This document shows, in pieces, positions 16,383 through 50,281 of a stretch of DNA of 61,839 nt. The stretch's first letter is position 1. Each line of letters opens with the position of its first letter. The stretch spans positions 1 to 61,839 of the IMG/VR virus record IMGVR_UViG_3300042898_003568; one strand, given 5' to 3'. The DNA comes from a virus. The notes under the pieces are model-generated. The model was given only the letters and a program-made list of their open reading frames with translations, did not search any database and was not told where the DNA came from. The position numbers were made by a program, and so were the translations under genes.

Positions 16383-16405
16383 AAAAAAAAACGCTATCAA
16401 AGCGC
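16383..16405. terminator. Intrinsic terminator at the end of the spoVR-like gene
   Basis: On the minus strand CGCT, loop TTGAT and AGCG are followed by a long T run (plus 16382-16391 is nearly all A). The spoVR-like stop TGA lies in the loop (16397-16399). Confidence 0.7.
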
Positions 16406-17893
16406 TTTTTTTGTTGTTCCTATTTCTTTTCCTTCTTCCATCATCCTGACCGGAAATCCCCAAAGATATTCTACGTGAGGCAGTACCTTAGATATTGACC
16501 CTGAATCCAGTGATCGCTTGTTGACCTGAGTGTGTTCTAATGTAAGCGTTCTGTCTCCGTATACGTCTATGTCATAGACCTGTATGTCAGGAACGTATCT
16601 ACTTCGGTTGTAAGATTCAGAAAGTGTTTGTCTAACTTTTTTATATCCGTATTCGTCATGTATTGCAGAAACTTCGTAGTGTGTCGCCTCTTCTTCGTCC
16701 GTAAGGCAGAAAAGCTTCATGTCTCTTATCACCTTTGGAGATAGGTACTGAAGAACGAAAGTCTCGTCTTTGAAGTTCTCTACAATATATCTAAAAGTTT
16801 CTGACCAATTTCCTTTTCCTGCTATTTCTGGAAACCAATTTTTGTCTTCTTGTGTAGGATTCAAAGACATCCTCTTCAAATCTGTGAATATGTTGAATCC
16901 CAGTGTGTATGGATTTAGTCCTGAATAGTAGTTAGAATCAAAACCTGGTTGAAATATTACATTTGAGTGATGATGAAAGAACTCTAACATAAAGTCATCA
17001 CCTAAATATCCTTCTTCATACATCTTATTGATTATCTCATAATGTGTGAATGTGGCACAGCCTTCATTAGTGACTTTAGATTGTCCTTGTGGGTAGAAAT
17101 ATTGAGAAGTCTTTCTTACGATTCTAACAAGCTCTCTTTGCCAACCTTTTAACTTAGGAGAGTTCTTTTCTATGAAATAAAGAATATTTTCTTCCGGTTG
17201 CTCAGGAAATCTTCTTTCTTTTGCAATTTCTTGCTTTTCCTTAGGAAGAGTTCTCCAGATATCGTCTAAAAAGACCTGATCATCTTCTAATTTCTTTTTA
17301 AGTCTTTCTTTTTCTTCGCCTGGTGATATCTTTCTTGGCTTTTGATATTTATCTACACCATAGTTCATAAGAGCATGACAAGAATCCAATACCGCCTCTA
17401 CTTCATCAAAACCATATTTCTCTTCACATTTAGTCACAAAGTTCTTTGCAAAGACCATATAGTCTATTATTGCATCTGCCTGAGTCCATTGTTTGAATAG
17501 ATAGTTGTTTTTGAAAAAATGGTTGTGGCCGTATGCGGCATGTGCCAAAACAAGTACCATTAAACAAGTAGTATTGTCTTCCATGTTATATGATATACAA
17601 GGATTTGAATTTATAACAAGTTCATAAGCCAATCCCATTCTACCTTTTTTGTAGTTGTTCTGGTTCATAACAAAGTCTTTTCCAAACTTCCAGTGATTAT
17701 ATGAAATAGGAAGTCCAATAAGAGAATAAGCATCTAACATCTGTTCGGATGATATTATCTCAAATTGATTTGGATAGGTTTCCAAACCAAGATACTCTTC
17801 TGCTATTCTAGAAACTACCTTATCTGCCTCTATTATTGTTTCTTCATCCCAATCTGATCGGGAAAAAAGTTTTTTTAAATCTGCTTTATCCAT
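16397..17893 (-). CDS. SpoVR/YcgB family protein
   Basis: The 498-aa protein spans the whole SpoVR family: YNHWKFGKDF near the start, then LVINSNPCISYNMEDN, VLAHAAYGHNHFF, NEGCATFTHYEI, NPYTLGFNIFTDLKR, and a C-terminal domain with VYDIDVYGDRTL. These are conserved family blocks. SpoVR was found in Bacillus spore cortex formation, and its E. coli homologue YcgB is linked with YeaG/YeaH. The biochemical activity is unknown. Its start shares a base with the YeaH-like stop. Confidence 0.93.
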   Translation of the reverse strand: MDKADLKKLFSRSDWDEETIIEADKVVSRIAEEYLGLETYPNQFEIISSEQMLDAYSLIGLPISYNHWKFGKDFVMNQNNYKKGRMGLAYELVINSNPCISYNMEDNTTCLMVLVLAHAAYGHNHFFKNNYLFKQWTQADAIIDYMVFAKNFVTKCEEKYGFDEVEAVLDSCHALMNYGVDKYQKPRKISPGEEKERLKKKLEDDQVFLDDIWRTLPKEKQEIAKERRFPEQPEENILYFIEKNSPKLKGWQRELVRIVRKTSQYFYPQGQSKVTNEGCATFTHYEIINKMYEEGYLGDDFMLEFFHHHSNVIFQPGFDSNYYSGLNPYTLGFNIFTDLKRMSLNPTQEDKNWFPEIAGKGNWSETFRYIVENFKDETFVLQYLSPKVIRDMKLFCLTDEEEATHYEVSAIHDEYGYKKVRQTLSESYNRSRYVPDIQVYDIDVYGDRTLTLEHTQVNKRSLDSGSISKVLPHVEYLWGFPVRMMEEGKEIGTTKKAL

Positions 17894-19155
17894 TATGCTG
17901 TCTTCTTTTTAAAGAAATCTTGAAAGACTTTCCAGATTCCACCTACTTCATCAATTTTACCTATTTCAAAGTTATTTCTTTTATCAGCAATTGTTTTATA
18001 ACTTTGCCATAAGTCACCTTCACTTCTTCTACATATCTCTATATAAATCATATATTGTACAGAGTTTAATATATCAGCATCCAATATTCTGGCACAATCT
18101 ACCGCGTCCGATCTATCCCAAACATCACCATCAGATGCTTGAGCAGCATATATGTTCCAATCTTTAGAATATCTTTCTTTTATGATTTTACTCATCAATT
18201 CCAATGCAGAAATAACAACCGTACCACCACTTTCTCTAGAGTTGAAGAACTCTTCTTCATTTACCTCTTTTGCGACCGTAGTATGTCTTATGAAAACCAT
18301 TTCAATCCTTTCATATTGTTTAGTCAAAAACATATAAAGTAACATGAAAAATCTTTTTGCTATGTCCTTTTCTTTTTCTCCCATCGATCCAGATACGTCC
18401 ATAACACAGAACATCACAGCAGACGTTACAGGAACTGCTACTTTTTCGAAGTTGTTGTATTGAAGGTCGACCTCTTCCATGAAAGATACTGAAAGCTTCA
18501 TCTTCTTTAGCTTATCCAACTCTTTCTCTAACTCAGCAATCAAAACCAAATCAGTCTCGGTCTTCAACTTATCCTCTATCTCCTTTATCTTCTTGTCGAA
18601 AAACATACCTACAGCCATTCTTCTAGCCATAGAGTTTTTGTAGGATCTTGTTATATTTAACTTGCTTGGATTTCCGTAGTTGGAATATCCTGCTCTCTTT
18701 TGTTTAAAGTCTACTATTGAGTTTAGATGTTTCTTAACCATGTCTGGTAGTTCTAAATCAGCGAAGAAGTAGTCTAAAAACTCTTCTCTACTTATCGTAA
18801 CTGAAAATTCATCTTCTGTTGGGTCGCCATCTTTCGAACCTTTCTGACCTTTTCCCTTTCCTTGTCCACCTTTTGGCTTTTCAATAGTATCTCCTTGAGT
18901 GTATTCTTTATTTCCTGGATGAACATGCTTTTTATCACCACTATCTTTATCATAGTGAAATTGTGGTTCACCTATTCCTTTAACAGGAACTTTTATATTG
19001 CCGTTGGAAGAAGTAAGATCTTTTACATTAGTATTTTTGACGATGTCTGGCAATGCTTTCTTAATCTGATCCTCTACTCTTTTAAGCAATCTCTGTCTGT
19101 TTTCTGAAGATTTCCCTTTAGAGTTCTTTCTTCGATCTACTATATTTATTGACAT
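17893..19155 (-). CDS. YeaH-like protein (DUF444, von Willebrand A-type)
   Basis: The 420-aa protein has the DUF444 pattern: a basic N-terminus (IVDRRKNSKGKSSENRQR), a glycine/lysine-rich linker, and a vWA-like domain with the MIDAS motif VMDVSGSMGE around residue 250. RHTTVAKEV and SGGTVVISAL follow. In bacteria the gene is paired with prkA/yeaG and spoVR/ycgB. All three are adjacent and in that order here, so the phage carries the intact module. Confidence 0.92.
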   Translation of the reverse strand: MSINIVDRRKNSKGKSSENRQRLLKRVEDQIKKALPDIVKNTNVKDLTSSNGNIKVPVKGIGEPQFHYDKDSGDKKHVHPGNKEYTQGDTIEKPKGGQGKGKGQKGSKDGDPTEDEFSVTISREEFLDYFFADLELPDMVKKHLNSIVDFKQKRAGYSNYGNPSKLNITRSYKNSMARRMAVGMFFDKKIKEIEDKLKTETDLVLIAELEKELDKLKKMKLSVSFMEEVDLQYNNFEKVAVPVTSAVMFCVMDVSGSMGEKEKDIAKRFFMLLYMFLTKQYERIEMVFIRHTTVAKEVNEEEFFNSRESGGTVVISALELMSKIIKERYSKDWNIYAAQASDGDVWDRSDAVDCARILDADILNSVQYMIYIEICRRSEGDLWQSYKTIADKRNNFEIGKIDEVGGIWKVFQDFFKKKTA

Positions 19156-19252
19156 CTATCAGGTTTTTAATTTTTATCATACGAAGAAGGTGCTTGATGG
19201 AATCTAATTCGATTCCACCATAGCCCGGTCTTCTATATTTTTTTAACATCAT
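19118..19252 (-). CDS. Possible coupled small protein, 44 aa
   Basis: An ATG overlapping the prkA-like stop (TAATGATG) opens a 44-codon frame (LKKYRRPGYGGI, then a basic helix). It fills the 96-base gap and ends 38 bases inside the YeaH-like gene. Overlap junctions of this kind mark real genes elsewhere in the window. It may alternatively be a leader that couples translation. Confidence 0.4.
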   Translation of the reverse strand: MMLKKYRRPGYGGIELDSIKHLLRMIKIKNLIDVNKYSRSKKEL

Positions 19253-21174
19253 TATGAGCTTTTTCTAACTCTTAAATACCAGTCAGTTAATAGCTTAATT
19301 TGTTTGTTAGTGTATCCTCTTTCAACCATTCTATCGATAAACTCAGAATGTTTTTTATCTTCTTCTTTAGATACTTTTCCAGTAAATGAGATTACAGGAA
19401 TCAAATCTTCTGTTTTAGAGAATATTCTTTTTTCGATAACATTCTTGATTTTCTCATAAGAATCCCAAGATGGTGCTGATCCATTTTTAGCTTTGTGTCT
19501 TAAATAGAACTGAACTAAATCGTTTCTGAAATCTTTAGGATTCGCAATACCTGCAGGTTTTTCAATCTTTTCAAGTTCTTCATTCAAAGCTACTCTATCG
19601 AATTGTTGTCCTGTCTCTGGATCTCTATAGTCGTTATCTTGACACCAATGGTCTGCATAAGTAATATATCTTTCGAATAAGTTTTGTCCATACTCTTGAT
19701 AAGAATCAACATAAGCTTTTTGAATCTCATCTCCGATAAACTCTGCATATTTTCCGCTTAGTTTAGATTTCAATATGTTAAGATAGAAATCTTCAGTTTC
19801 TTTTGGCATTTGTGCTTTAACAATCTCATTTTCAAGAACGTAGAATAAATGAACTGGATTAGCAGCAAGTTCTTCAGAATCGTGGTTGAATACTTTAGAA
19901 AGAACTTTAAATGCAAAACGAGTTGATATTCCATTCATTCCTTCAGTAACACCGGCATTATCTTTATATTCTTGTAATGATTTAGCTTTAGGATCAGACT
20001 CTTTTAAGTTCTCACCATCATAGATTCTCATCTTTGAATATAGATTAGAGTTTTCAGGAACTTTCAATCTTGTCATTACAGAGAATTGTGCCAATAAGTC
20101 TAAAGTCTTTGGTGCACAAGGTGCTTCAGATAAAGAAGAACCTTTAAGAAGTTTTTTATAGATTTCTACTTCTTCATTTACTCTCAAGCAATAAGGTACT
20201 CTTACGATGTAAACCCTGTCTAAGAAAGCTTCGTTCTTTTTATCATTTGAGAAAACATCCCATTCAGACTCATTAGAGTGTGCTAAGATAATACCTTGAA
20301 AAGGAATAGCTGGTAAGTTTTCTGTACCATTGAAGTTTCCTTCTTGAGTTGCAGTTAATAAAGGGTGTAGGACTTTGATAGGTGCTTTAAACATCTCTAC
20401 GAACTCCATCATACCTTGGTTTGCACGACAAAGAGATCCTGAATAGTTATAAGCATCTGCATCATTCTGTGGAAACTCTGCCAACTTTCTTATATCTACT
20501 TTTCCTACTAATGCTGAAATGTCTTGATTGTTTTCATCACCTGGTTCTGTCTTAGCAATACCGATTTGAGACGCGATAGACATCTTCATTTTTCTCACTT
20601 TGAACTTAGAGATATCACCTTCAAATTCGGCTAATCTTTTTGTTGCCCAAGGAGAAGCACATGAAGGAACGTATCTTTTTGCGATTCCATATTCATCCTC
20701 TAACTCTTTTCTGTAGTTTGCGAAAAGACCAAGTGGACTTTCCCACACAGGAGATACTTCACCATCAGCAACAAGCACATACATAGTGCTTCTTTCCATA
20801 AGTTGCTTCAACCTTTCAGCCAAAGATGACTTACCTCCACCTACTGGTCCTAAAAGGTATAGTATTTGTTTTTTTTCTTCTAATCCTTGTGCGGCATGTT
20901 TGAAGAAAGAAACAATTTGTTCGATAGTTTCTTCCATTCCAAAGAATTCGTTGAATGCAGGGTATCTTTTGATTACTTTGTTAGAGTAGATTCTGCTCAG
21001 CCTTTCGTCTAATTTAGTATCGACTATTGCCGGTTCGCCGATGGCATCTAACATTCTTTCTGCTGGAGATGCGTATATTTTGTTATCCTCTTTGCAAAGA
21101 TTGAGATACTCTTGTATCGTGATGTCCTTATCGGAATGTGCAAAGTCTTTCTTGATGATGTTCAACAAACTCAT
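19252..21174 (-). CDS. PrkA/YeaG-type serine protein kinase with AAA+ domain
   Basis: The 640-aa protein is full length for PrkA. It has the N-terminal AAA+ module with Walker A LLGPVGGGKSS (G109-S117), the block CASPWATKRL, the region GILAHSNESEW, and the C-terminal PrkA kinase-like domain. PrkA phosphorylates proteins in starvation and sporulation (YeaG in E. coli, PrkA in Bacillus). It heads the prkA-yeaH-spoVR run. In a phage it may alter host stress state or resource use. Confidence 0.94.
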   Translation of the reverse strand: MSLLNIIKKDFAHSDKDITIQEYLNLCKEDNKIYASPAERMLDAIGEPAIVDTKLDERLSRIYSNKVIKRYPAFNEFFGMEETIEQIVSFFKHAAQGLEEKKQILYLLGPVGGGKSSLAERLKQLMERSTMYVLVADGEVSPVWESPLGLFANYRKELEDEYGIAKRYVPSCASPWATKRLAEFEGDISKFKVRKMKMSIASQIGIAKTEPGDENNQDISALVGKVDIRKLAEFPQNDADAYNYSGSLCRANQGMMEFVEMFKAPIKVLHPLLTATQEGNFNGTENLPAIPFQGIILAHSNESEWDVFSNDKKNEAFLDRVYIVRVPYCLRVNEEVEIYKKLLKGSSLSEAPCAPKTLDLLAQFSVMTRLKVPENSNLYSKMRIYDGENLKESDPKAKSLQEYKDNAGVTEGMNGISTRFAFKVLSKVFNHDSEELAANPVHLFYVLENEIVKAQMPKETEDFYLNILKSKLSGKYAEFIGDEIQKAYVDSYQEYGQNLFERYITYADHWCQDNDYRDPETGQQFDRVALNEELEKIEKPAGIANPKDFRNDLVQFYLRHKAKNGSAPSWDSYEKIKNVIEKRIFSKTEDLIPVISFTGKVSKEEDKKHSEFIDRMVERGYTNKQIKLLTDWYLRVRKSS

Positions 21175-24631: not shown

Positions 24632-25294
24632 CTAAAAATTTGGTTTATTCTCTTCTAATTTTGATAAAATATATTCCATTGCTTCTTCTGCAGTATCTAC
24701 TACTGCAAATAGGTTTAGATCCTCTTTAGAAACTTTACCGTCTACTAACATAGTTTTTTTGATCCATTCAACCAATCCTTCCCAATAATCTTTACCAACT
24801 AAAACAATAGGTAATGGTCTTAAATGTTTCGTTTGTATAAGTGTTATAGTTTCAAATAGTTCATCTAAAGTTCCAAATCCACCTGGAAAAGCAACAAAGG
24901 CTTGTGAGTATTTTAAAAAGAAAACTTTTCTTGTAAAGAAGTATCTACACGTAACTAATTCATCAATAAAATTATTAGCACTTGTTTCAAATGGTAGTTC
25001 AATCTGTAATCCAATTGATTTACCATTACCATAAGCACCTGCATTAGCGGCTTCCATTATACCTGGTCCTGCACCAGTTATTACACCGTATCCACTTTTA
25101 ACAATCAATTTTGATAGTTTAATGGCTTCGTTATAATATTTATCATCTTGTTTTGTTCTTGCGGAACCAAAGACTGATATACATGGTGATAAGTTTGATA
25201 GTTCGTCAAATCCTTTTATAAATTCTCCTTGAATTCGTAAAACTTGCCAAGCATCTTCTGCTTTTTGATTATATTTCCACTCTTGATCTTTCAT
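24632..25294 (-). CDS. LOG-family nucleotide 5'-monophosphate nucleosidase
   Basis: The 220-aa protein has VFGSART, GVITGAGPGIMEA and the signature PGGFGTLDE (137-145). The catalytic Arg and Glu of LOG proteins (TRKVFF, GTLDE) are present. Relatives cleave the N-glycosidic bond of AMP or similar nucleotides, releasing the base and ribose 5-phosphate. In a phage it may recycle nucleotides or remove modified signalling nucleotides. The neighbours are Nudix and a nucleotidase. Confidence 0.88.
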   Translation of the reverse strand: MKDQEWKYNQKAEDAWQVLRIQGEFIKGFDELSNLSPCISVFGSARTKQDDKYYNEAIKLSKLIVKSGYGVITGAGPGIMEAANAGAYGNGKSIGLQIELPFETSANNFIDELVTCRYFFTRKVFFLKYSQAFVAFPGGFGTLDELFETITLIQTKHLRPLPIVLVGKDYWEGLVEWIKKTMLVDGKVSKEDLNLFAVVDTAEEAMEYILSKLEENKPNF

Positions 25295-25753: not shown

Positions 25754-27646
25754 TTATTTAACTTCTTCAAAATCTGTATCTTCTACTTCGCCATTACCAC
25801 TAGGTTCTGTATTAGTACTTTCGTTTTGAGGTTCTTGAGAGCTTTCTTGATACAATCTAGTACTGATTGCATTCCAGCTTTCGTTTAACTTTTCAGAAGT
25901 TGCATCAATCCTAGCAACATCTTGCTCAGTATATGCAGCTCTTAAAGCATCTAAGTCTGTTTTTAATGTAGACTTATCTTCTTCTGTAAGTTTTTCGTCA
26001 AATTCTTTCATTTGTTTTTCAGTTTGGAAGATTTGAGTATCTGCTTGATTAAGTTTTTCAACTTTCTCTTTTTCAATCTTATCTGCTTCTGCGTTTAATT
26101 CAGCATCAGCTTTCATTTTCTCAATCTCTTCTTTTGTAAGTTGAGATCCACCTTCGATTCTAATCTTGTTTTCTTTACCAGTTGCTTTGTCTTTAGCAGA
26201 CACAGACAAGATGCCATTTGCATCTATATCCAAAGTTACCTCAATCTGAGGAACTCCTCTTGGTGCTGACATGATTCCGTCAAGATTAAATCTACCTAAA
26301 GATCTATTATCTTTTGCCATTGCTCTCTCACCTTGAAGAACGTGAAGCTCTACAGATGGTTGGTTGTCAGAAGCAGTAGAGAAAGTCTCACTTTTTCTTG
26401 TTGGGATTGTACAGTTCGCCTCAATAAGTTTAGTGAATACACCACCCATTGTTTCGATTCCTAATGATAAAGGAGTTACATCTAATAAAAGAACGTCAGT
26501 GATTCCTCCTGTCAATACAGCACCTTGAATAGCCGCTCCTAAAGCAACAACTTCATCAGGGTTTACTGATTTGTTAGATTTCTTACCGATGAACTTCTCG
26601 ATAGCTTCTTGTACTGCTGGGATTCTTGTAGAACCACCAACTAAGATTACTTCATCAATATCAGATGGTTTTAAGTCTGCATTTTTTAATGCACTCTTGG
26701 CACAAGCAATTGCTCTATCTACTAAAGAAGAAGTCATTTGGTCAAACTTAGACTTAGTCAATTTCTTAACAAAGTGTAAAGGCATACCATCTTTCGCAGT
26801 GATGTAAGGTAAGTTGATTTCAGATTCACTAGTAGATGATAACTCAATCTTAGCTTTCTCAGCAGCATCTTTCAATCTTTGTAAAGCCATAGCATCTTTC
26901 GCTAAATCCATAGCGTGCTCAGATTTGAACTCGTCAAGCATCCAAGTGATGATTGCGTTGTCAAAGTCGTCTCCTCCTAAGTGAGTGTCACCGTCAGTAG
27001 ATTTAACTTCGAATACACCATCACCAATCTCTAATACAGATACGTCATGAGTTCCCCCGCCGCAGTCAAATACTAAGATTTTAGAGTCTGTGTTCTTTTT
27101 GTCTAAGCCATAAGCCAATGCCGCTGCAGTTGGTTCGTTGATGATTCTTTCTACTTTTAAACCAGCGATTTCTCCTGCTTCAATAGTAGCTGTTCTTTCT
27201 GCATCACCAAAGTATGCAGGAACTGTGATAACCGCTCTTTTAACTTCATGACCTAAATAGTCTTCAGCAGTTTTCTTCATTTTTTGAAGAATCATTGCAG
27301 AAAGTTCTTGTGGAGTATAGTCTCTACCATCGATATTCACTACAGGAACATTTCCAGTTTTTGATTTTTTCACTTCATAAGGAACTCTTTTAGTTTCATC
27401 AGAACAAGCTGAATAATCTTTTCCAATGAATCTTTTGATAGAGTAGATTGTGTTTTTTGGATTCGTTACAGATTGTCTTTTCGCAGGATCTCCAATTTTT
27501 CTGTCGTTTTCTGTGAATGATACGATAGAAGGTGTTGTTCTTCTTCCTTCTGAGTTACTGATTACGACTGGTTCGCCGCCTTCAACGACTGCCACACATG
27601 AGTTAGTGGTTCCTAAGTCGATTCCAATAATTACGTCTTTTGCCAT
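25754..27646 (-). CDS. dnaK: DnaK (Hsp70 chaperone)
   Basis: The 630-aa protein is full length. It has [17 protein letters not shown] at the N-terminus, the actin-fold phosphate motifs ([22 protein letters not shown]), the substrate domain ([14 protein letters not shown]), a helical lid, and a C-terminus ending EDTDFEEVK. With GrpE (34988) and DnaJ (36917) the phage encodes the full Hsp70 cycle. A likely role is folding of large virion proteins or replication complexes. One oddity is CGGGTHDVS where most DnaK have CGGGTxDVS. It is clearly bacterial in type. Confidence 0.97.
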
Positions 27647-27891
27647 ATTGTTTTTTTTATTTTTTTACTTTATACTTTCAAATTACGTGCCAAAATATTT
27701 TTTATGACATTTTGTCAGGCAATTGTCAGTTTGCTTACAGATTGTTATATAAACAAAGGAAAAAAAGTTTAAAAAATATTCTGTCTACATGTCTTGCCAT
27801 TGTTGACATGTTTTTCACAAACCCTTGCCATGGTTGATAAATATCATTTTTTTTGATTTTTTTTTAATATATAATCAAAACTATTAAAAAG
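27647..27891. promoter_or_regulatory. Divergent control region with TGACA/TGTCA half-sites
   Basis: This 245-base gap lies between dnaK (minus) and the histidine kinase (plus). It has TGACA-TTT-TGTCA (27705-27717), TGTCA at 27724, an inverted pair ACATGTC/GACATGT (27787-27793, 27805-27811), and a direct repeat CTTGCCATnGTTGA (27793-27806, 27824-27837). A phage-type promoter (T run, AATATATAATC) sits at 27857-27878. No gene is evident. The half-site cluster looks like an operator. Confidence 0.5.
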
Positions 27892-30078
27892 ATGGATAAA
27901 TATAAAAACAAATCATCTATAAAAGCAAAAATTGCACTTGGACTGGCAATTTTTGTCATGTCTATATTCTTCATCGTGAAGACTATGGTATTCATGGAAG
28001 AAATTCCATCAACTCCGATGACGAGAGGAATAGAATATGGATGCTTTCTACTATTCATACCAATCTTTGGAGTATTCGCAAAGGAATTTCTAAAAAGAGG
28101 TAAAGAAGATGCCAAGCAAGGAATCTATCTAAAAAAACTAAACAATGTTCTTATAGAACAATCACATAATCATTTATTTTATGAAGGTGATGTAACTAAT
28201 GGTGCAAAAGCTTTAGTAAAAGAAGTAACCAATTCAATCGATGCAGATAGATGTTCTATTTGGCTATACAACGAAGACAAGACTTCTATATTATGTGAAC
28301 AGCTTTATGTAAAAGCAGAAGATAAGTTCTACCAAAATATAGAACTTTTTGAAAAAGACTTTGGTGGATACTTTGAACATCTTACAATAGATCCTATAAT
28401 AGTCGCAAATGATGCAGAGACACATCCTGCAACAAAATGCTTTACAGAATCTTACTTAAAGCCACTTGGTATAAAGTCTATGCTAGACGTTCCAATCGTA
28501 TATAAAGGAAAAGTTATAGGAGTTATCTGTATAGAAAACCTTATACTTAGAGAATGGCAAAAGGTAGAAGTTGACTTTGCACAAATGTTATCATCTTTAT
28601 ATTCGTTTGCTTATTCAGTAAGAGAATCAAATATTGTTTCAAATGAACTTATTGAAATGGAGAGATTCATAGATGAGGCAAACATTATATCAAAGGCTGA
28701 TAAAAATGGGAAGATAACATATGTGAATAAAAAATTTACAGAAGTTTCTGGATGGACATTAGAAGAAGCTCTTGGTAAAGACCATAATAAAGTAAACTCC
28801 GATACATATACTAAAGATTCGGAAGAAGTACCATTTATCGCAATACCGCCAGAATTCTGGAATAACATGTATAATACCGTAATAAAAGATAAGAAAATCT
28901 GGAATGAAGTGGTTACCAACAAGAAAAAAGACGGAAGCCTTTACTATTTAGACACTTATATTAAGGCATCATTTGATAAGAATGATGTTCTAAAAGGGTT
29001 TACATCTATTAGACAAGATTTAACAGAACTTAAAAATAAAGAAGTTGATATCAGCAACAGGATGAATGCGATAAACAGATCTAACGCAGTAATCGAATTT
29101 GATATGGAAGGAAACATAATATATGCAAATCATCAGTTCTTAGATACACTTGGATATTCTTTCGATGATATAAAGGGTAAAAAACATAAAATATTCTTAG
29201 AAGAAGAGTACAAAGACAGTAAAGAGTATAAAGACTTTTGGCAAGTACTTAAAAATGGAGAATATTTTATGGGAGAAATAAGAAGAGTCAAAAAAGATGG
29301 TTCTATAGTATTTCTTCAAGCAACCTACAATCCAATCATTGGAACGGATGGAAAGCCTTACCGAATAATGAAGATTGCAAACGATATAACACTTTCTGTA
29401 AAACAACAGATTGAGATTGAAAGAAAGAATACTTATTTAGAACACTCAGCTAAGATACTTAGACACGATATGCATAGTGGAATAAACACTTATATGCCAA
29501 GAGGTTTAAACTCATTAGAACGTAGATTGACAGAAGACCAAATAAAAGAGTTAAAGATAGAAGCACCTATCAAAATGATTAAAGAAGGTCTTAGACATAC
29601 ACAAAAAGTTTATAAAGGTGTTTATGAGTTCACAAACCTTGTTAAGAAAGACGTTGTTTTAAATAAAGCAGAGTGTGATCTTAAAGCTATTTTAGAAGAT
29701 TACTTATCAGCAACCGCTTATAAGAACCAAGTAGTGATAGAGGATATTGGAACAGAGAATGTCAATGAAGCTCTTTTTTGTACGGCACTCGACAATCTTA
29801 TCAGAAACGGATTGAAGTATAATGATAGTTCAAGTAAGGTTGTAAAGATATACAGAGTTGAAGATGTTCTTTTCGTAGAAGATAATGGTAGAGGAATGAC
29901 TCAAGAAGATTTTAAAGCATTATCAGAACCTTATACACGAAAAGAAGGACAGAAAGAAAGCGGGACCGGTTTAGGTTTAAATATATGTGTAGCAATTTTA
30001 GAAGAACATAAGTTCTCTATAACATGTGATAAACTACCTGAAGGTGGAACGCAACTAAAAATAAATATGAAAAAATGA
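27892..30078 (+). CDS. Membrane sensor histidine kinase (2 TM, GAF, two PAS, HisKA-like, HATPase)
   Basis: The 728-aa protein has two N-terminal hydrophobic segments (about 13-30 and 48-62), a GAF domain (85-240), two PAS domains (about 258-375 and 385-500), a dimerisation helix with LRHDMHSGIN where H525 is the likely phosphorylation site, and an HATPase with DNLIRNGLKYN, DNGRGM and GTGLGL. It would sense a signal in the infected cell and phosphorylate the receiver encoded next (ATGA-type overlap). A complete histidine kinase is very unusual in a phage. Confidence 0.93.
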   Translation: MDKYKNKSSIKAKIALGLAIFVMSIFFIVKTMVFMEEIPSTPMTRGIEYGCFLLFIPIFGVFAKEFLKRGKEDAKQGIYLKKLNNVLIEQSHNHLFYEGDVTNGAKALVKEVTNSIDADRCSIWLYNEDKTSILCEQLYVKAEDKFYQNIELFEKDFGGYFEHLTIDPIIVANDAETHPATKCFTESYLKPLGIKSMLDVPIVYKGKVIGVICIENLILREWQKVEVDFAQMLSSLYSFAYSVRESNIVSNELIEMERFIDEANIISKADKNGKITYVNKKFTEVSGWTLEEALGKDHNKVNSDTYTKDSEEVPFIAIPPEFWNNMYNTVIKDKKIWNEVVTNKKKDGSLYYLDTYIKASFDKNDVLKGFTSIRQDLTELKNKEVDISNRMNAINRSNAVIEFDMEGNIIYANHQFLDTLGYSFDDIKGKKHKIFLEEEYKDSKEYKDFWQVLKNGEYFMGEIRRVKKDGSIVFLQATYNPIIGTDGKPYRIMKIANDITLSVKQQIEIERKNTYLEHSAKILRHDMHSGINTYMPRGLNSLERRLTEDQIKELKIEAPIKMIKEGLRHTQKVYKGVYEFTNLVKKDVVLNKAECDLKAILEDYLSATAYKNQVVIEDIGTENVNEALFCTALDNLIRNGLKYNDSSSKVVKIYRVEDVLFVEDNGRGMTQEDFKALSEPYTRKEGQKESGTGLGLNICVAILEEHKFSITCDKLPEGGTQLKINMKK

Positions 30079-30512
30079 TAGATTCAATTTTATTAGTGGA
30101 TGACGAAGATTTATTCCACTTAGTATTCGAAGACGCTTGTAGTCTTTTAGATATAACCCTTTCTTTACAAGGACTAAATAGTTCTGATGAAGCAGAAGGC
30201 CTTTTCAAAAAATGGTTTAATGAAGGACCAATCGATGAAAAACCAGAGTGTGTATTCGTTGACTTAAACATTATTGGTTCATCTTTCGATGGGATTGAAC
30301 TTATTCGTAAGATAAACTTTGAATATGGTAATCACGTAGTAATCGGAATTATATCTTCTTCTGACGAACCAACAGAACAAGCTAAAGCTATTTCAGCAGG
30401 TGCTCAATTCTGGATAATCAAATCTGACGATATCGAACCAAGACTTGAAGAGTTCAGAAAAGACTATGATGGATATAAAAACAGAACGAACCCATTCAAG
30501 ATTTATAAATAA
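30075..30512 (+). CDS. Stand-alone response regulator receiver (CheY-like)
   Basis: The 145-aa protein is a single receiver domain with the acidic pair D9-D10, the phospho-acceptor D63 (VFVDLN), the switch serine (GIISSSDE) and the conserved lysine (WIIKSD). No output domain is attached. It overlaps the kinase gene by four bases and is followed three bases later by the coiled-coil membrane protein. It therefore probably acts by protein-protein contact. Confidence 0.9.
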   Translation: MIDSILLVDDEDLFHLVFEDACSLLDITLSLQGLNSSDEAEGLFKKWFNEGPIDEKPECVFVDLNIIGSSFDGIELIRKINFEYGNHVVIGIISSSDEPTEQAKAISAGAQFWIIKSDDIEPRLEEFRKDYDGYKNRTNPFKIYK

Positions 30513-30515
30513 GTC

Positions 30516-31196
30516 ATGATAAAAATTGACAAAGCAACGAAAGAGGCATTATTGGATCTATATAAATCCAAAAAGATTGCATTAGAAGGAAATATCCTAA
30601 AGGTTATAGATTCTGATGGTGATTTAGAATTTGATACTTATGTAAAGGATTCGATTGAGAAAGACAAAGAGAATAGAAGAAAACGTCTTGATATAACCAA
30701 ACAGATACAAAATAAAAACAAAGAGCTTTTAGAAGGTGAGGTTGAAAAAGAAAGAGTAAACTTAGAATTGGTTGCAGCTCTTGAAGAGGCGGAAGAATCT
30801 AAAAAAGAAGCAATAAGTGCTAAAGAACAGGCAGAACTTGCCAAAGAAGAAGCTGAAACGGCTAGAGAAGAAGCTGAAGTTGCAAGAACAGAGGCAGAGA
30901 AGTCTAAGATTGAAGCAATAAACGCAAAGAATCTTGCAGAAGGTGATTTAGAACTTATGCAGAAAAGAACTCAGTTTGAGTTGATTGGAACTATTGTAAA
31001 GGTTGCACTTTGGGTTATCTTAGGAGTTGGTGTAATAACTACATTAGTTTTTATGATAGCACTCTTCGCCGGTAAGGATACCGCAGTTATTGGATCGACC
31101 TGGAGTAATATAATAGGAATACTTCTTACGAACTCATTCAGTATTATAGGAACAATAATGGGTGTCAAATACGCATCCAGTGATAAAAAAGAATAA
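30516..31196 (+). CDS. Coiled-coil membrane protein, 226 aa (likely output of the two-component set)
   Basis: Residues about 40-150 are a long Glu/Lys/Ala heptad region (repeats of AKEEAETAREEAE type), followed by two hydrophobic helices (about 160-185 and 195-218) and a short Lys-rich tail. It follows the receiver gene within the same transcript. An effector role in membrane organisation, lysis timing or exclusion is inferred from position. No family is recognised. Confidence 0.7.
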   Translation: MIKIDKATKEALLDLYKSKKIALEGNILKVIDSDGDLEFDTYVKDSIEKDKENRRKRLDITKQIQNKNKELLEGEVEKERVNLELVAALEEAEESKKEAISAKEQAELAKEEAETAREEAEVARTEAEKSKIEAINAKNLAEGDLELMQKRTQFELIGTIVKVALWVILGVGVITTLVFMIALFAGKDTAVIGSTWSNIIGILLTNSFSIIGTIMGVKYASSDKKE

Positions 31197-31227
31197 AAAA
31201 AAGTGTCAGATTTCTGACACTTTTTTT
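31195..31227. terminator. Intrinsic terminator shared by convergent genes
   Basis: AAAAGTGTCAG (31199-31209) pairs with CTGACACTTTT (31214-31224), loop ATTT, with long A and T flanks. Confidence 0.92.
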
Positions 31228-31361
31228 ATTTTAACATCATATCCAGGTGCTGGACTATTCTTATTTGATATAGGAGTCCAAGCAGTTTCACCATCGGTGA
31301 ATCTTTTAATACGTACTTTTCCTCGCTTACGATTTATTACACTGAACTTTCTTAACTTCAT
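31206..31361 (-). CDS. Small basic protein, 51 aa
   Basis: The start is placed at ATG 31361 (MKLRKFSVINRKRG). The frame is open further upstream but would overlap most of the zinc-site gene. It is very basic and ends in VSEI inside the terminator. Nucleic-acid binding is possible. Confidence 0.5.
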   Translation of the reverse strand: MKLRKFSVINRKRGKVRIKRFTDGETAWTPISNKNSPAPGYDVKIKKVSEI

Positions 31362-31563
31362 CTTCCCACTCTTTTTTTGATACAGACACCGTTGACTTAT
31401 GAAAGTGTTCGTGTCCGATTCTTTGTGCTTCAGAACCTCTATCGAAGTCCCAAAACCTTGCTTCCGCCGAAGAACATTGTAGTGTGACCGTTTGTCCACC
31501 ACCATCTGTCTTGTAAAGGTACTCTCCGCAAAGAGAGCACTTATACTTTTCGATCTTAGTCAT
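31327..31563 (-). CDS. Small Cys-containing protein, 78 aa
   Basis: It begins with CSLCGEYLYKTDGGG, a zinc-knuckle-like C-x2-C. Further ligands could be C30, H51, H53 and H55 (GHEHFH). The AT-rich box TTAATATATAGTATATG lies at its start. The function is unknown. Confidence 0.6.
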   Translation of the reverse strand: MTKIEKYKCSLCGEYLYKTDGGGQTVTLQCSSAEARFWDFDRGSEAQRIGHEHFHKSTVSVSKKEWEDEVKKVQCNKS

Positions 31564-32837: not shown

Positions 32838-33347
32838 ATGAGTAGAAAATCATCAGTAAACAAAATAAAAAGAGATAACTCTAAGTCAAAAAACATCGAG
32901 TCTGCTATGTGTATGTATCTATATGAGAAATCACATTCACCAATCACTACAAGATTCACAGGAATGGGTCTTCAAGAGTGTGATGTAATATCTATATCAA
33001 AGTCTGACTACATATATGAATATGAGATTAAAACCAGTAGAGCAGATTTCAAAAAGGATTTCATTAAAGAAAAACACACACATATAATAAACGAAAAGTA
33101 CACACGAACTATAAAAGGACAGTTGACATATCTTCTTCCTAACTACTTTAGCTTCGTTACACCAAAGGATTTGATATCTGTCGATGAAGTTCCTGAGTAT
33201 GCTGGTTTAATCTATATGAATGAAGATTCTTCTTTTGAAGTTGTAAAGAAACCAAAGTTATTACATAAGACTAAGGCGAATGAAGAGTTCATAAGAAAAT
33301 TAGCACATAATCTAAGTTGTAAACTAATATTCAATAAGATTGCTTAG
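32838..33347 (+). CDS. Probable PD-(D/E)xK nuclease-fold protein
   Basis: The 169-aa protein has the arrangement QECDVISIS...YEYEIKTSRADF, in which D (about residue 50) and E-I-K would be the metal-binding D and E-x-K of the restriction-like fold. Lys-rich ends suggest DNA binding. It could process damaged DNA or cut host DNA. The fold assignment comes from the motif only. Confidence 0.55.
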   Translation: MSRKSSVNKIKRDNSKSKNIESAMCMYLYEKSHSPITTRFTGMGLQECDVISISKSDYIYEYEIKTSRADFKKDFIKEKHTHIINEKYTRTIKGQLTYLLPNYFSFVTPKDLISVDEVPEYAGLIYMNEDSSFEVVKKPKLLHKTKANEEFIRKLAHNLSCKLIFNKIA

Positions 33348-33763
33348 GACTTCTTTTCTTTTTCGTATCTATCGATAACTCTTTTTCTAAGTTCTGTTGT
33401 AGAGAATGAATGTCTTCTGGTGTTATAGTACATTTCGATATGTTCTAAATTCTTACCAGTAAAATCTTTGTCTTTATATTCATCACCAACAACTCTTATA
33501 TTTATAGGATAAGTGTATAAAATATCCAATAAATCTTTTTCTGTTGCATAAACAACCACTTCATCTACATACTTACACGAATCCAATTGTATAAATCTTT
33601 CGACAACACTTTGTATTGGTTTATTTTTTTCGGGTCTGTCAATAGTTGGGTCTGTTTGAAGTCCTACTATAAGATAATCGCATTTTGACTTTGCTTCTTT
33701 AAGCATCATTATGTGTCCTGCATGGAATAAATCAAAGCAAGAGCAAGTGAATCCTGTCTTCAT
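33344..33763 (-). CDS. Cytidylyltransferase-like nucleotidyltransferase (TagD/RfaE-C type)
   Basis: The 139-aa protein has FDLFHAGH (H14-A-G-H17), the ATP/CTP-binding motif, and a C-terminal RHSFSTTELRKR, equivalent to the RTEGISTT motif. Such enzymes activate glycerol or sugar phosphates with CMP or AMP. It may feed surface-polymer or virion glycan synthesis, with the cassette at the right edge. The exact substrate is unknown. Confidence 0.82.
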   Translation of the reverse strand: MKTGFTCSCFDLFHAGHIMMLKEAKSKCDYLIVGLQTDPTIDRPEKNKPIQSVVERFIQLDSCKYVDEVVVYATEKDLLDILYTYPINIRVVGDEYKDKDFTGKNLEHIEMYYNTRRHSFSTTELRKRVIDRYEKEKKS

Positions 33764-38272: not shown

Positions 38273-41200
38273 CTATTCATACAAGCTACTTGTACGATAA
38301 ATATTTCGATGAAAGACAAGACATCCTGTTGGATACGTCGCATATGTTGTCGGGCTCGTCGAGTATGTAGTTCCTACAGTTAGTAGAGTTGTACTATAGA
38401 GAGTATTATTAAAACCGTTGATGAAATTTGAACAACGAATAGCACCACTATTTGAGCTGTAGTATGTTCCGGTTGCTGTAGTCAAGAATGCCCTTAGATA
38501 AACAAAGTGAATTGGGTATGGTGCACCGACAACACCATCCCAAGGAGTTCCTGGTAAAATACCCATAATATTTGGCGTTGTCGTCTTACCTGAGATGGCA
38601 TATGCAACCGAATCGGATAAGGTAGGTGTAGTCGATGTAGTCGACCAACAAACTCCAGAGCTCAATACGGTTTCTCCACCATATATCGAATTAGAAAACG
38701 TCATAGAAACATATCCCTGTGGTGCAACATAAGCAGAATTTACTGCCTGTTCTGCCATTTGATATACCAACGGTAAAGCGTCAATAGATATCGAAGTACG
38801 TCTCCAGTCTCTATTATAATCGAAGTCCCACGGACTATATGTTGCCGGCTCCCATTCTCGTTCCCACCAACCACGTCTCCACCAAGGAGTATATTCTTCA
38901 TCCCATGTCGTATCCCAGACCCCTACATCTACTGCGTTAGTTGCCAACCTGAAGGCCCTTACTTTTTTGATGCCTGACTTACCATCCGACTTTTGATATC
39001 CTACAGATGGAACTGATGCCTCTGAGCACGAGTAATAGTATGCAGTGGCTGCGTTTATTTCTGTTGATGTCCAATATGAACCTGCCAATGAATCAGATCC
39101 GAGTACAGTATTTACTATACTCCCAGCGTTGAATGCTTGATTCATTTCAAATACAGATGGTAAATACCAATCTGTGAATCCACCACCAGTATAGTTGTCA
39201 CATAACTTAGCTGCAGAAGTTGTGTGTCCACTTTGTCCGATTATACTTGTCTGATTATTTTCTCCTTTGAAGTCCGAAGTTGCATTAGAAACCACTGACG
39301 TTATGTTTGACCATTGAGAATTTGCACTTACATCTTCTAAAGACATTATAAGATAGTTGAATATAGTTTTAGGATAATACCACATTGCGACTATTATTCC
39401 ACCACCATATAGCTCCCCGATATATCTATAGTTGTTAGGTCTTGAAAAAATTGAGTTTTTGTCTACCCATTTTGAATATCCAACGGAGTTTAGTTTTAAT
39501 ATCTTTTCGTTACTAATCTCACCTATTTCAAGTGATAAGTTTTGTGATATTGAGAATGTGGGATTTCCATTTATCTCATGAGAGAAGAATTTGTTTGCAT
39601 CATTAAAGTTGTCAAATCTGAATTTATCAGTATCGTAATTATTTCTTACTTCACCATAACTAATAGATTTGTTATATATCTGAATACTTGCCAATGATCC
39701 TTTTAGAGGATTTACTGCAGTTGAATATCTACCGACAATAACATCACCGGCAATACCTGTTGCCATTGTGAATGTGGATGGAGCAGAAGAGTTTATATCA
39801 AGTACGGAATCTATATATGTCTTTAGATTTTTAGTTGTATTGTCAAAAGTAGCACAGACATGAGTCCATTTGTTCAAATCTATACCTTTTGTACCAACCT
39901 TATCAACAATAACAGTTAAGTTTTTTAGTCTTACTCCTATTGTACTCAAAGTAGTTCCTAAAACTTGATAAACTTCCCATGGACCACTGGTTGCACCGGT
40001 TGTATTCCATCTTACTATTATCGTGGAATTTCTTCTTTCTGTTAATTTTACCCAAAAAGAAACCGAAAGGTTCTGAATAGCTTGAAAGTCGACAGAGTTT
40101 GCCCATGCTAAATATGGATTTGTAGCAATAGTTCCTGGAAAGATTAGTTCTTTTCCATTGTATAAAGTGTTTGTTCTTTGAACTGCAGGTATTGTTGTAG
40201 TACCTGAGATAGTAAGAGTTGCGCTTCTCACATTACCACTTAGGTCGGTAACCGTTCCACTTATTGTTCCATCACCAGAATAAGAGTTCGTATTGTCGAA
40301 GTCTATACTTGTAAAGATATTGTTGTCTAATAACTTAGGTAGAATCTCATATCTTTTCTTCTCTACGCTGTAGTTCTTCATTATTTCGTCTTTTGTAAGT
40401 GCTCTATTATAAATTCTAAACACAGACATATCCATTGGCATTATATAATTAAGGGCTGCTCTGAAACCACCAATTCTTCCTTGACCAGAATTGAAGTTTG
40501 CAGTGGTGGCACTTGGTGTTGATGTAGGAAACTGTTGAGAAAGTATCTGCTCGTTTCCATTTATATAAATCTTATTGTTTGATAAAATATTTGGAGCAGT
40601 TCCAAGGGCTGCCCCTGTCTTCATCTCAAAAACATAATGATTCCAGTTATCAACCAGATTAAGTTTAGCTACTTGAGTAGTCGATATTCCATATAAATCT
40701 GAACTATTTGTATTGAATCCTAAATGTCCGCTCGCGCAATATACATCATATTGATCCCAACCAAATATCATTTTTCCACTATATGCAGGTTTTAGTCTTA
40801 CCCAAGCTTCTACAGTTACGGTAGTCGTGTTTCCAACGGTTGTCTGAAAATCTACATAGGAATTCCCATTAAATCTAATGAATCCGCTCTCACTTGGTAA
40901 GTATACCGGCCCTGTAGGTGGAGTTCCACCAACATTTGTTCTTACATAGATGTTATCTACGCTAGGTCCGGATTTGGTTACCGAATCGACATAACTTGCA
41001 TTTGGTGCTGTTATCTTTATGGATATGTTCTTTCCACTGAATTGACTCAATTGTATGTGCACTGATGCACCAGTACCACTATTGTTGTTTCCAACGGTAT
41101 TTGTTATTTGGGTTAGTAGAAAGTATGCTCCAGGTGTTCCTCCCGAATTGATAGAGACATATACGTTTACAGTAGCACTTACAGTGCTTTTGACGGTACT

Positions 41201-43351
41201 TTGGTCGAGAGTATCGAATTGTAGGTAAGCATATGATGACCCTACTGCGAAATAGTTTGAAACCAAAGATGATTCTCCGGTATTGTTGTATAAAGTTGGA
41301 GTAGTCGTTCCGGTTATTTTTGTAAAACCCCAAGCACCGACTAACCTATAAGCCAAGCTATCTAAGTTACCTCCAGTGTTTAGATCTGCAAGTATATTTG
41401 TAATAGTTCCTCCTGATACCGAATTAGGGAAAGCGGATAGATTGAACAAATATGATGAATTCAATCCACCATTAACCAAATCTTTCCATTTGGTATATAC
41501 TCCTAGGTTTAGATAGTCTACATCAGAGAAAGACTTTTTGATTGTAGAATCTAGATTCATTATCAATCCGTCACCTGTATAGACAGACTCTTTTCTTACT
41601 GCTCTTACTCTTCCAAAGCTTGATTTGTTTTTAAAATAGTAATCAGCACCATTAGGAGTACCGGCAAAAGAATTAAAAGACATTGCAGCATTTGTGGAAT
41701 TTGCTCCTCCAGATCCTGGTGGTCGAAAATATTCCGTTGATGTCCAATAATCTTTGATTAGGAAATTAAGACTATCATCCTTTAAAACTTTATTTATTAT
41801 AGCTGCATTATTGAAGACTTGGTTTAGTTCGTAGTATGATGGTAGATACCAGTCATCATAACCAGAACCTCTATAATCAGCACAAACTTTTGCAGCACTA
41901 TAGATTGTATTTAACGAGTTAGATTGTGCGATTATCACATCACTATTCAAATCTCCGTTATAAAGACTTTGTGCCAAAGCACCTACGGTTGTACCCTGTG
42001 CTGCACCTGCAGCCCATCTGATATCTTGTATATAGGTCAGAGGTTCATAGTTCAATCCTGTTCCTGTAGAGTCGAACGAAATATTTACCACCTCTTGTGC
42101 AGCAGGTACGTTCTGACCAACACCTGATGTTATTGGAGTCGTTTCAGAACCGACATAGTCTACATATATTCTGAATACACCCATCGTTCCTTGTCCCTGA
42201 TTGTATAGTATTCGGTAGTTTGCTGCAAGGTATTGAGCATTGGAAGACATCGCAGGATAATAAAAATCTACAGCAACCACACGAAAGACATTGACGACAG
42301 AAGTCGTAGTAGACTTTATTCTAAGCAATCCTTTTTGTACAACATTTGAATAGGTATACCCACCAGGAATGGTAGTAAATGAACCAGCACCTGCCGCTTC
42401 ATTTGGAACTAATCCAGATCCACCACCAGTTCCGTTTAAAGATAGGAAAAAGCCAGCCTGATCTACCAGATTTATATCTAAGTTGTGTATACATATAATA
42501 GCAACATTTTGAAGATTTCCACCACCATATGGACCAGATCCATTTAAATCGTGATAGGTTAAGAATTTATTCGTTGAGGTGGATGTTCCAGGATTATCTA
42601 AAGTAGCATTAGTACCCATTTTGTATGGAATGGTTGTGATAGTTCCAATCGAGCCCGCACCATCTTCTGTAGTGATGTCCTCGTTCGATACGATAAGAAC
42701 TTTTTCATCTTCTGCTTCTTTCCAAACTGCCGCGACTATTCCTCCTCCATATTTCTCTCCTATGTAGTGACCAAATGAGAAAAGAGACTTTACTGGTTTC
42801 CAAGTAGCCAACCCTGAAGAATCGGATGTCAATACTCTTTCAACACCCTCACTTGCATCTCTTATTTGTAAAGGATCGTAGAATCCTACCGTAGTATCTG
42901 ATATATAGTATCCATGTGCATCGGATGCACCGTATGTAGATATAGAAAATTGTGCACCATACTTATTTACATTAGCGGCAAATATGTCGTAGTATCCAGA
43001 ACAATATGCCCTAACATAGTAAGTAGTGTTTGGTAACAGAGTATCTATCTTCACACTATAGTCCCAATTTATTGAAGAAGCAGCGGCGCTATAAATTTCG
43101 GGTTTCATCAAAGAATCAATAACCTGTCCGGATATTGGTACTAAAGTATCAGTAGTGGTTGTATTTGAAATGGATTGTGCAGTTGTTATTGATATTGGTT
43201 GTGTACTATAAATAAAACCTAATCTTATATTAGTAATTCCTGGTCCAAAAGAACTCGGAATAAAAAATCCTGTTCCTTTTGCGATTATCGAGCTATCTAA
43301 TCTATTGGTTAATTCTATAGTTACTGAACCTAATTGTGCTGATGTTGCCAT
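38273..43351 (-). CDS. Giant tail-fibre/adhesin with two DUF1566-like modules and two LamG domains, 1692 aa
   Basis: From the N-terminus: a Fn3-like region, the fibre phrase VLTSDSSGLATWKPVKS (about residue 170), a DUF1566/Lcl-type module (about 190-590; IGEKYGGGI, DWYLPSYYELNQ, YWTSTEYF, RVRAVR), two LamG concanavalin-like domains (about 830-990 and 1080-1240), a second DUF1566-like module (about 1305-1475; IGELYGGGI, DWYLPSVFEMNQ, YWTSTEIN), a Trp/Arg patch (about 1490), and a Fn3-like C-terminus. These are sugar- or surface-binding folds. It lies in tandem with the 505-aa protein and is likely the host-range determinant. Confidence 0.85.
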   Translation of the reverse strand: MATSAQLGSVTIELTNRLDSSIIAKGTGFFIPSSFGPGITNIRLGFIYSTQPISITTAQSISNTTTTDTLVPISGQVIDSLMKPEIYSAAASSINWDYSVKIDTLLPNTTYYVRAYCSGYYDIFAANVNKYGAQFSISTYGASDAHGYYISDTTVGFYDPLQIRDASEGVERVLTSDSSGLATWKPVKSLFSFGHYIGEKYGGGIVAAVWKEAEDEKVLIVSNEDITTEDGAGSIGTITTIPYKMGTNATLDNPGTSTSTNKFLTYHDLNGSGPYGGGNLQNVAIICIHNLDINLVDQAGFFLSLNGTGGGSGLVPNEAAGAGSFTTIPGGYTYSNVVQKGLLRIKSTTTSVVNVFRVVAVDFYYPAMSSNAQYLAANYRILYNQGQGTMGVFRIYVDYVGSETTPITSGVGQNVPAAQEVVNISFDSTGTGLNYEPLTYIQDIRWAAGAAQGTTVGALAQSLYNGDLNSDVIIAQSNSLNTIYSAAKVCADYRGSGYDDWYLPSYYELNQVFNNAAIINKVLKDDSLNFLIKDYWTSTEYFRPPGSGGANSTNAAMSFNSFAGTPNGADYYFKNKSSFGRVRAVRKESVYTGDGLIMNLDSTIKKSFSDVDYLNLGVYTKWKDLVNGGLNSSYLFNLSAFPNSVSGGTITNILADLNTGGNLDSLAYRLVGAWGFTKITGTTTPTLYNNTGESSLVSNYFAVGSSYAYLQFDTLDQSTVKSTVSATVNVYVSINSGGTPGAYFLLTQITNTVGNNNSGTGASVHIQLSQFSGKNISIKITAPNASYVDSVTKSGPSVDNIYVRTNVGGTPPTGPVYLPSESGFIRFNGNSYVDFQTTVGNTTTVTVEAWVRLKPAYSGKMIFGWDQYDVYCASGHLGFNTNSSDLYGISTTQVAKLNLVDNWNHYVFEMKTGAALGTAPNILSNNKIYINGNEQILSQQFPTSTPSATTANFNSGQGRIGGFRAALNYIMPMDMSVFRIYNRALTKDEIMKNYSVEKKRYEILPKLLDNNIFTSIDFDNTNSYSGDGTISGTVTDLSGNVRSATLTISGTTTIPAVQRTNTLYNGKELIFPGTIATNPYLAWANSVDFQAIQNLSVSFWVKLTERRNSTIIVRWNTTGATSGPWEVYQVLGTTLSTIGVRLKNLTVIVDKVGTKGIDLNKWTHVCATFDNTTKNLKTYIDSVLDINSSAPSTFTMATGIAGDVIVGRYSTAVNPLKGSLASIQIYNKSISYGEVRNNYDTDKFRFDNFNDANKFFSHEINGNPTFSISQNLSLEIGEISNEKILKLNSVGYSKWVDKNSIFSRPNNYRYIGELYGGGIIVAMWYYPKTIFNYLIMSLEDVSANSQWSNITSVVSNATSDFKGENNQTSIIGQSGHTTSAAKLCDNYTGGGFTDWYLPSVFEMNQAFNAGSIVNTVLGSDSLAGSYWTSTEINAATAYYYSCSEASVPSVGYQKSDGKSGIKKVRAFRLATNAVDVGVWDTTWDEEYTPWWRRGWWEREWEPATYSPWDFDYNRDWRRTSISIDALPLVYQMAEQAVNSAYVAPQGYVSMTFSNSIYGGETVLSSGVCWSTTSTTPTLSDSVAYAISGKTTTPNIMGILPGTPWDGVVGAPYPIHFVYLRAFLTTATGTYYSSNSGAIRCSNFINGFNNTLYSTTLLTVGTTYSTSPTTYATYPTGCLVFHRNIYRTSSLYE

Positions 43352-50280: not shown

Positions 50281-50281
50281 G

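Follow-up and report, generated by a model that had tools for sequence, protein, structure and literature searches.

A phage-borne, apparently mobile kinase-receiver cassette that may act on a membrane protein to tune lysis timing

The window analysed here is the whole of the IMG/VR virus record IMGVR_UViG_3300042898_003568, 61.8 kb (61,839 nucleotides) long, and our subject is a cassette of three co-directional genes within it, encoding a predicted sensor histidine kinase, a stand-alone receiver and a coiled-coil membrane protein. The kinase and receiver genes share a 4-base ATGA overlap, and the coiled-coil gene starts 3 bases past the receiver gene. A sequence-only reading had described the locus as a complete two-component system with a membrane coiled-coil partner in a phage, and this description is supported throughout: the list of open reading frames (ORFs) has the three genes at the positions and on the strand first proposed, the anatomy and conserved residues are those of a complete unit, and the window, besides being filed as a virus, is colinear over much of its length with two phage records of 635-642 kb. 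These are LR745206 (634,780 bases) and LR756502 (642,428 bases), which we take to be Mahaphages, a clade with genomes of >600 kb; gene order is shared with them, and the topoisomerase (79-81%), DnaK (79-82%) and YeaG-like kinase (84%) of the window are closely similar to theirs in sequence identity. The parts of the cassette are as follows.

27892..30078, + strand: sensor histidine kinase, 728 amino acids (aa) (ORF; Pfam GAF, PAS and HATPase_c; AlphaFold2; Foldseek)
27937..28092, + strand: two hydrophobic membrane segments, kinase aa 16-34 and 49-67 (Kyte-Doolittle)
28207..28605, + strand: GAF domain, kinase aa 106-238 (Pfam)
28684..29391, + strand: two PAS domains, about aa 265-377 (model) and 399-500 (Pfam) of the kinase (Pfam, AlphaFold2)
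29464..29466, + strand: H525, predicted phosphorylated histidine (invariant in 45 non-redundant kinases)
29776..30066, + strand: HATPase_c catalytic domain, kinase aa 629-725 (Pfam)
30075..30512, + strand: stand-alone receiver, 145 aa (ORF; Pfam; active-site residues invariant in 38 receivers)
30261..30263, + strand: D63, predicted phospho-acceptor (invariant in receivers)
30516..31196, + strand: coiled-coil membrane protein, 226 aa (ORF, model, hydrophobicity, 64 non-redundant homologues)
31110..31166, + strand: membrane helix 2 of the coiled-coil protein, aa 199-217 (inside its most conserved stretch)

The kinase has the GAF domain, two PAS domains, H525 and full HATPase first read from its sequence, both by Pfam match (HATPase_c at 54.5 bits against a cut-off of 26.4) and by the residues that are invariant across the 45 non-redundant kinases, namely H525, N639, D664, N665, G666, G668, G693 and G695. 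Its AlphaFold2 model (predicted local distance difference test, pLDDT, 88.8; predicted template modelling score, pTM, 0.53) runs in the order GAF, PAS, PAS, a two-helix region (~500-582) and the catalytic domain (~590-726), and the closest solved structures retrieved by Foldseek are NifL, a WalK model, LOV histidine kinases and phytochromes. Pfam HisKA is unmatched in the window's kinase at E 0.1 and is also absent among the 25 families listed for the 45 kinases, in which the sensor families comprise PAS in 31 and GAF in 18.

The receiver, likewise, carries all the active-site residues attributed to it: D9, D10, D63, S94 and K116, together with E11, are invariant across 38 non-redundant receivers, which, like the invariant kinase residues, speaks against a chance resemblance. 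Response_reg scores 29.8 bits in the window, just below the cut-off of 30.2, and lies above the cut-off in 24 of 30 relatives' records. When 30 long records chosen from those behind the loci were searched with PF00072, 24 matches were obtained, one each in 24 records and all of them the cassette's own receiver. Three HATPase matches (24-30 bits) lie away from the cassette.

The coiled-coil protein has two hydrophobic segments (aa 167-185 and 199-217, Kyte-Doolittle), and its AlphaFold2 model (pLDDT 87.0, pTM 0.36) consists of a small N-terminal domain, a helix (37-185) continuing into membrane helix 1, and another helix (190-222). Across 64 non-redundant homologues, in which the coiled coil differs in length, 28 columns are invariant, 16 of these within aa 196-218 around membrane helix 2, and the invariant polar residues near this helix are N198, T205, N206, S209, T213 and K218. 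Neither a Pfam family above cut-off nor a Pfam receiver-domain match was found for it; in PHROGs it matches tail and coiled-coil families only, and no holin family. No convincing relative came from the PDB, whether by fold or by sequence, and the BFVD match is a single protein, uncharacterised, from an uncultured phage (E 4.8e-14, 52% identity).

The sequence-only reading had also held that such a relay is rarely seen in phages, which is true of the named phage records searched but not of uncultivated phages. Among 50,697 records of named phages, receiver and coiled-coil protein were unmatched at E 1e-3 and the kinase matched seven, all partially (none over >80% of its length) and at best with 33% identity. 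In IMG/VR, where our receiver scan matched at least 596 stretches, of which the best 80 were kept, at least 592 stretches encode a relative of the receiver. With a further IMG/VR scan, for which 14 receivers were aligned, the set grew to 146 loci (L005-L150), some of them copies of one contig or species; all except L066 were parsed, and in 125 of the 145 the kinase, receiver and coiled-coil genes are directly adjacent, so that looking for the three-gene unit in other large phages, as had been suggested, gave a strongly positive result. Among the other parsed loci, nine have an extra gene between kinase and receiver, one has a gene between receiver and coiled-coil gene, five lie near a contig end on the kinase side, three are cut after the receiver, and two (L138 and L140) have no kinase adjoining the receiver. 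The junction of receiver and coiled-coil gene is -4 or -1 base in 125 of 141 loci.

Outside viral collections the cassette is scarce. In 72,556 plasmid records, the coiled-coil protein was unmatched and the receiver had three weak matches (<=32% identity). In a cellular collection of 84,980 species, scanned in a way that detects close relatives only, one relative was confirmed among 56 pattern matches; this is L085, which we take as phage DNA in a bin because phage-like genes share its contig, where the same three genes occur with ORFs resembling PhoH and a terminase piece (read by eye). The coiled-coil profile, run against 245 genomes of the phylum of that bin (which is not Bacteroidota), returned the bin itself and one weak match (E 4e-4).

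These counts bear on the idea that the cassette is a recent, non-functional host fragment absent from relatives. One half of it stands, in that the cassette is missing from this site in the nearest relatives; against it are the at least 592 viral stretches versus a single match in 84,980 cellular species, itself on a phage-like contig, the intact active sites, and the rates of nonsynonymous (dN) and synonymous (dS) substitution. Among 30 gene comparisons in ten pairs, dN is below dS in all 23 with estimable dS, dS being saturated in the other seven; the weakest contrast is that of the near-identical coiled-coil genes of L044 and L067 (0.006 and 0.01), and the others are clear. On the viral versus cellular distribution and on dN < dS we reject a host fragment as extremely improbable; to judge from these comparisons, the cassette is a widespread phage gene set under constraint.

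Within this set, the receiver and the coiled-coil protein look, from their sequences, like a core to which variable kinases are joined. In Mantel tests on cluster representatives, for which the last 230 residues of the kinase were used, identities correlate between receiver and coiled-coil protein (r 0.46, p 0.002, n=58) and between receiver and kinase (r 0.22, p 0.018, n=57), and not significantly between kinase and coiled-coil protein (r 0.11, p 0.11, n=53). Two kinases precede a single receiver in 32 of the 145 loci, the second mostly with a signal-peptide-like start (by eye), and in 25 of these 32 a secreted-looking protein of ~200 aa sits between the kinases (e.g., L050:5938-6540). This protein has no clear family match and always accompanies the second kinase, possibly as a periplasmic sensor partner; a role as spanin was considered and dropped, since neither Pfam nor PHROGs supports it.

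Having no output domain, the receiver most likely acts through the coiled-coil protein, and since neither an output domain nor a second receiver was detected and the genes are linked and co-diverge, kinase to receiver to coiled-coil protein is the economical order of events. A relay with a membrane protein as its output is, in our judgement, likely, and the modelled structure, a stalk leading into a membrane hairpin that has polar residues among its invariant ones, would suit a gate or an oligomer switch. One could instead imagine that the cassette rewires the host, its kinase or its receiver exchanging phosphate with host relays while the coiled-coil protein does no more than anchor or localise the receiver; the receiver without a DNA-binding domain, the ability of two kinases to feed it and the variation of the sensor halves would all agree with this, but the coiled-coil gene adjoins the receiver in nearly every locus with a long enough contig, and the membrane helix, one of the best conserved parts of the protein, is kept beyond the needs of a plain anchor, which makes this explanation quite improbable.

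Comparison with relatives places the cassette in a variable site between the DnaK gene and a small Cys-rich gene.

25754..27646, - strand: DnaK gene, one border of the variable site (Pfam, comparison with relatives)
27710..31196, no strand: stretch with the cassette; L187, a sibling phage, has a different gene there and no counterpart (sibling comparison)
31196..31227, no strand assigned (the scan lists the - strand): inverted repeat with a T run, terminator-like (kept in L187)
31327..31563, - strand: small Cys-rich gene, other border of the variable site (ORF, comparison with relatives)

The receiver is absent from the whole of LR745206 and LR756502, and in the latter 263 bases, with no cassette, separate the small Cys-rich gene from DnaK. 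In L187, whose flanks share 86-88% DNA identity with the window (97% for DnaK), homology ends at window base 27709 and restarts at 31197, the first base after the coiled-coil stop codon, and the site holds a gene of ~259 aa (L187:1873-2677) that, read by eye, is GIY-YIG homing endonuclease-like. GIY-YIG-like genes (again by eye) are also found between kinase and receiver in other phages (e.g., L046:3518-4240); homing endonucleases may help move the cassette. A search for the YeaG-like kinase returned 33 loci, ten of them showing DnaK, and the cassette occurs in two of these ten, L186 (the window's own species) and L188 (the contig of L007). Among 16 records from which further YeaG loci come, together with the two named genomes, one has the receiver, ~50 kb from DnaK (behind L193).

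Phylogeny adds to this picture. In the 17 cassette records with a whole terminase gene, terminase identities span 13-93% (mean 28%) and receiver identities 66-93% (mean 79%), with pairs such as L090/L092 (terminases 93%, receivers 80% identical) and L072/L145 (21% and 92%). Sixteen of these records have all the genes, and in approximately unbiased (AU) tests on them neither data set accepts the other's tree: p is 1.5e-40 for the terminase tree on the joined cassette alignment and 6.4e-38 for the cassette tree on the terminase, and purely vertical inheritance is thereby rejected in both directions. High receiver identity is no proof of recent transfer, as dS is saturated even for receivers 92% identical; the argument for transfer is made on the tree conflict and the L187 site, from which we conclude, at the level of sequence comparison, that the cassette moves between unrelated phages.

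Mobility and patchy presence among close relatives would also suit a conflict module for superinfection exclusion or abortive defence, with the relay responding to a rival phage or to damage of the envelope and the membrane protein either barring entry or killing the cell. The signal-peptide-like start of the second kinase in two-kinase versions (by eye) and the homing endonuclease-like gene at the same site in L187 point the same way. PADLOC, on the other hand, left kinase and receiver unmatched and returned noise-level matches only for the coiled-coil protein, and such a module does not predict the proximity of endolysin genes found in many relatives; we regard it as unlikely.

This proximity involves a GH19-type endolysin (phrog_181, E 2.7e-66), an M15-type endolysin (phrog_894) and a further family matching the endolysin phrog_33083 (E 5e-12), and one small protein adjoining a cassette has a weak holin match (phrog_199, 4.9e-5), with Phage_holin_4_1 just below cut-off. 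In 144 loci grouped into 62 clusters, the three endolysin-like families supply 32 of the 342 genes lying at most three genes from the cassette and 4 of the 744 more distant ones (odds 19, p 5e-13), a p value that is too small because the families were chosen after being seen beside the cassette and because the clusters are not independent lineages; in 27 of the 62 clusters, some member has one of the families within three genes. Less biased, though still counting related records, is a test of distance for phrog_181, which is present in 27 of 38 whole records and lies <=5 kb from the receiver in 17 of these 27, versus 4.4 expected under random placement (p 5e-5); 15 of 24 remain within 5 kb after dropping one of each of three near-duplicate pairs.

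DnaK itself makes up 7 of 342 genes within three of the cassette versus 2 of 744 farther out (p 0.006, uncorrected for the families looked at), and this, with the GAF and PAS sensors and a YeaG-like kinase gene in the same region, could be taken as a sign of persistence or stress control, in which the relay would monitor the energy or redox state of the host and, possibly together with DnaK, pause the infected cell. The link to DnaK is weak, though, and most clusters do not show it; we hold this reading to be even more improbable than a rewiring of host relays.

The lysis timing proposed from the sequence is thus indirectly favoured by the neighbourhood of endolysin genes in other phages, but by nothing in the window. 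In the mechanism that we envisage, the GAF and PAS domains of the kinase would detect a cue (joined, where other phages have two kinases, probably by a periplasmic one), and the kinase would autophosphorylate on H525 and pass the phosphate to D63 of the one Pfam-detected receiver; the receiver would then, most likely, bind the cytoplasmic stalk of the co-encoded coiled-coil protein and alter the state of its conserved membrane hairpin, which would advance or delay membrane permeabilisation, the relay thereby tuning the timing of lysis. Phosphotransfer, receiver binding, membrane action and lysis output are all steps that we infer.

Several observations weigh against this mechanism. The coiled-coil protein is without a relative of known function in the PDB and BFVD searches, and a divergent second receiver might have escaped PF00072, which found none in the 30 long records and missed the known receiver in six of them. 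The endolysin-like families are not within three genes of the cassette in 35 of the 62 clusters, phrog_181 lies 18-57 kb from the receiver in 10 of 27 records and was not found in 11 of 38 whole records, and beside the cassette of the L193 phage no lysis gene can be recognised. The window has none of the endolysin, holin and spanin families tested from near the cassettes of relatives, and the endolysin that LR745206, LR756502 and three IMG/VR relatives have close to DnaK did not turn up in the records of L187, L188 and the window's species, those of L187 and L188 being short fragments.

Our proposal, then, is a His-Asp relay that phages carry and pass on horizontally and that would tune lysis timing through a membrane protein; we hold it tentatively, and lysis as the output no less so. 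The wider view, of a virus-specific signalling module in which several unrelated lineages of uncultivated huge phages exchange a phosphorelay cassette, made of a receiver and coiled-coil core and swappable kinases, that decides the moment of lysis, is possible and is offered with somewhat greater reserve. A shared cassette often near lysis genes suggests that huge phages sense the state of the infected cell, and they may use it to decide when to burst that cell.

Elsewhere in the window, three adjacent genes on the - strand (16397-21174) match phrog_35217, phrog_19072 (with a weaker "sporulation protein" match) and phrog_22605; the last resembles YeaG/serine kinases of named phages, and the trio is perhaps a phage-borne YeaG-YeaH-SpoVR stress operon. 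An adenosylhomocysteinase gene (TIGR00936, 653.6 bits) lies directly 5' of a DNA methyltransferase gene (48970-51127, + strand), an arrangement by which the phage may recycle the methylation by-product. The - strand further encodes a 1692-aa protein with weak adhesin matches (38273-43351), a lysine-decarboxylase-like (SLOG/LOG) gene (24632-25294) and a heptose-phosphate adenylyltransferase-like gene (33344-33763). T4-type late promoters (TATAAATA) show no clear excess in the window (11 matches vs 9.4 expected), and a sigma-70 promoter scan found 13 vs 17.2 expected.

A literature search, mostly without subscription papers and bioRxiv, returned among the papers listed no description of a phage kinase-receiver system of this kind, and exact-phrase searches (e.g., "phage-encoded histidine kinase") returned no paper; a word search for "two-component" had no hit in the accessible portions of PMC7162821, PMC12607003, PMC12619734, PMC13282480 and PMC13037316. 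If our proposal is true, large phages make regulated decisions by bacterial-style signal transduction, through a conserved signalling family two members of which, the receiver and the membrane protein, have no match among the named phages searched, and huge-phage sensing of host state becomes directly testable with three genes. What is known of how phages time lysis and sense superinfection comes mainly from small dedicated proteins.

Among known systems, Detocs likewise encodes a kinase, a stand-alone receiver and an effector together, and its effector gene fuses a receiver domain to an effector domain; the third protein of the cassette differs in having neither a receiver domain nor a PADLOC match beyond noise, and identity with Detocs was rejected on these grounds. 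CheY- and Spo0F-type systems resemble the cassette in placing a PAS/GAF kinase beside a single-domain receiver and, for Spo0F, in feeding one receiver from several kinases, but the cassette's kinase is without a HisKA match, its partner is a coiled-coil membrane protein, and its homologues occur almost only in phage contigs. A class II holin, whose two membrane helices leave both termini in the cytoplasm, makes lethal lesions in the membrane by which endolysin is released or activated; for the coiled-coil protein, sequence and model predict two hydrophobic helices, and none of its PHROG matches is to a holin family. With T4 lysis inhibition, in which the RI antiholin acts with the T holin, the likeness goes no further than a possible logic, whereby a sensor would time lysis by way of a membrane protein; the cassette has a phosphorelay and a cytoplasmic coiled coil, and no antiholin. 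Weak matches of the kinase and receiver to phrog_857, phrog_10912 ("kinase") and phrog_731 indicate that such proteins exist in named phages or prophages. Finally, the cREC receiver-like domain of jumbo phages shares the receiver fold in large phages and, according to PMC7824862, is never found with histidine kinases and is tied to NAD+ systems, whereas the receiver of the cassette has the canonical residues and sits beside a kinase.

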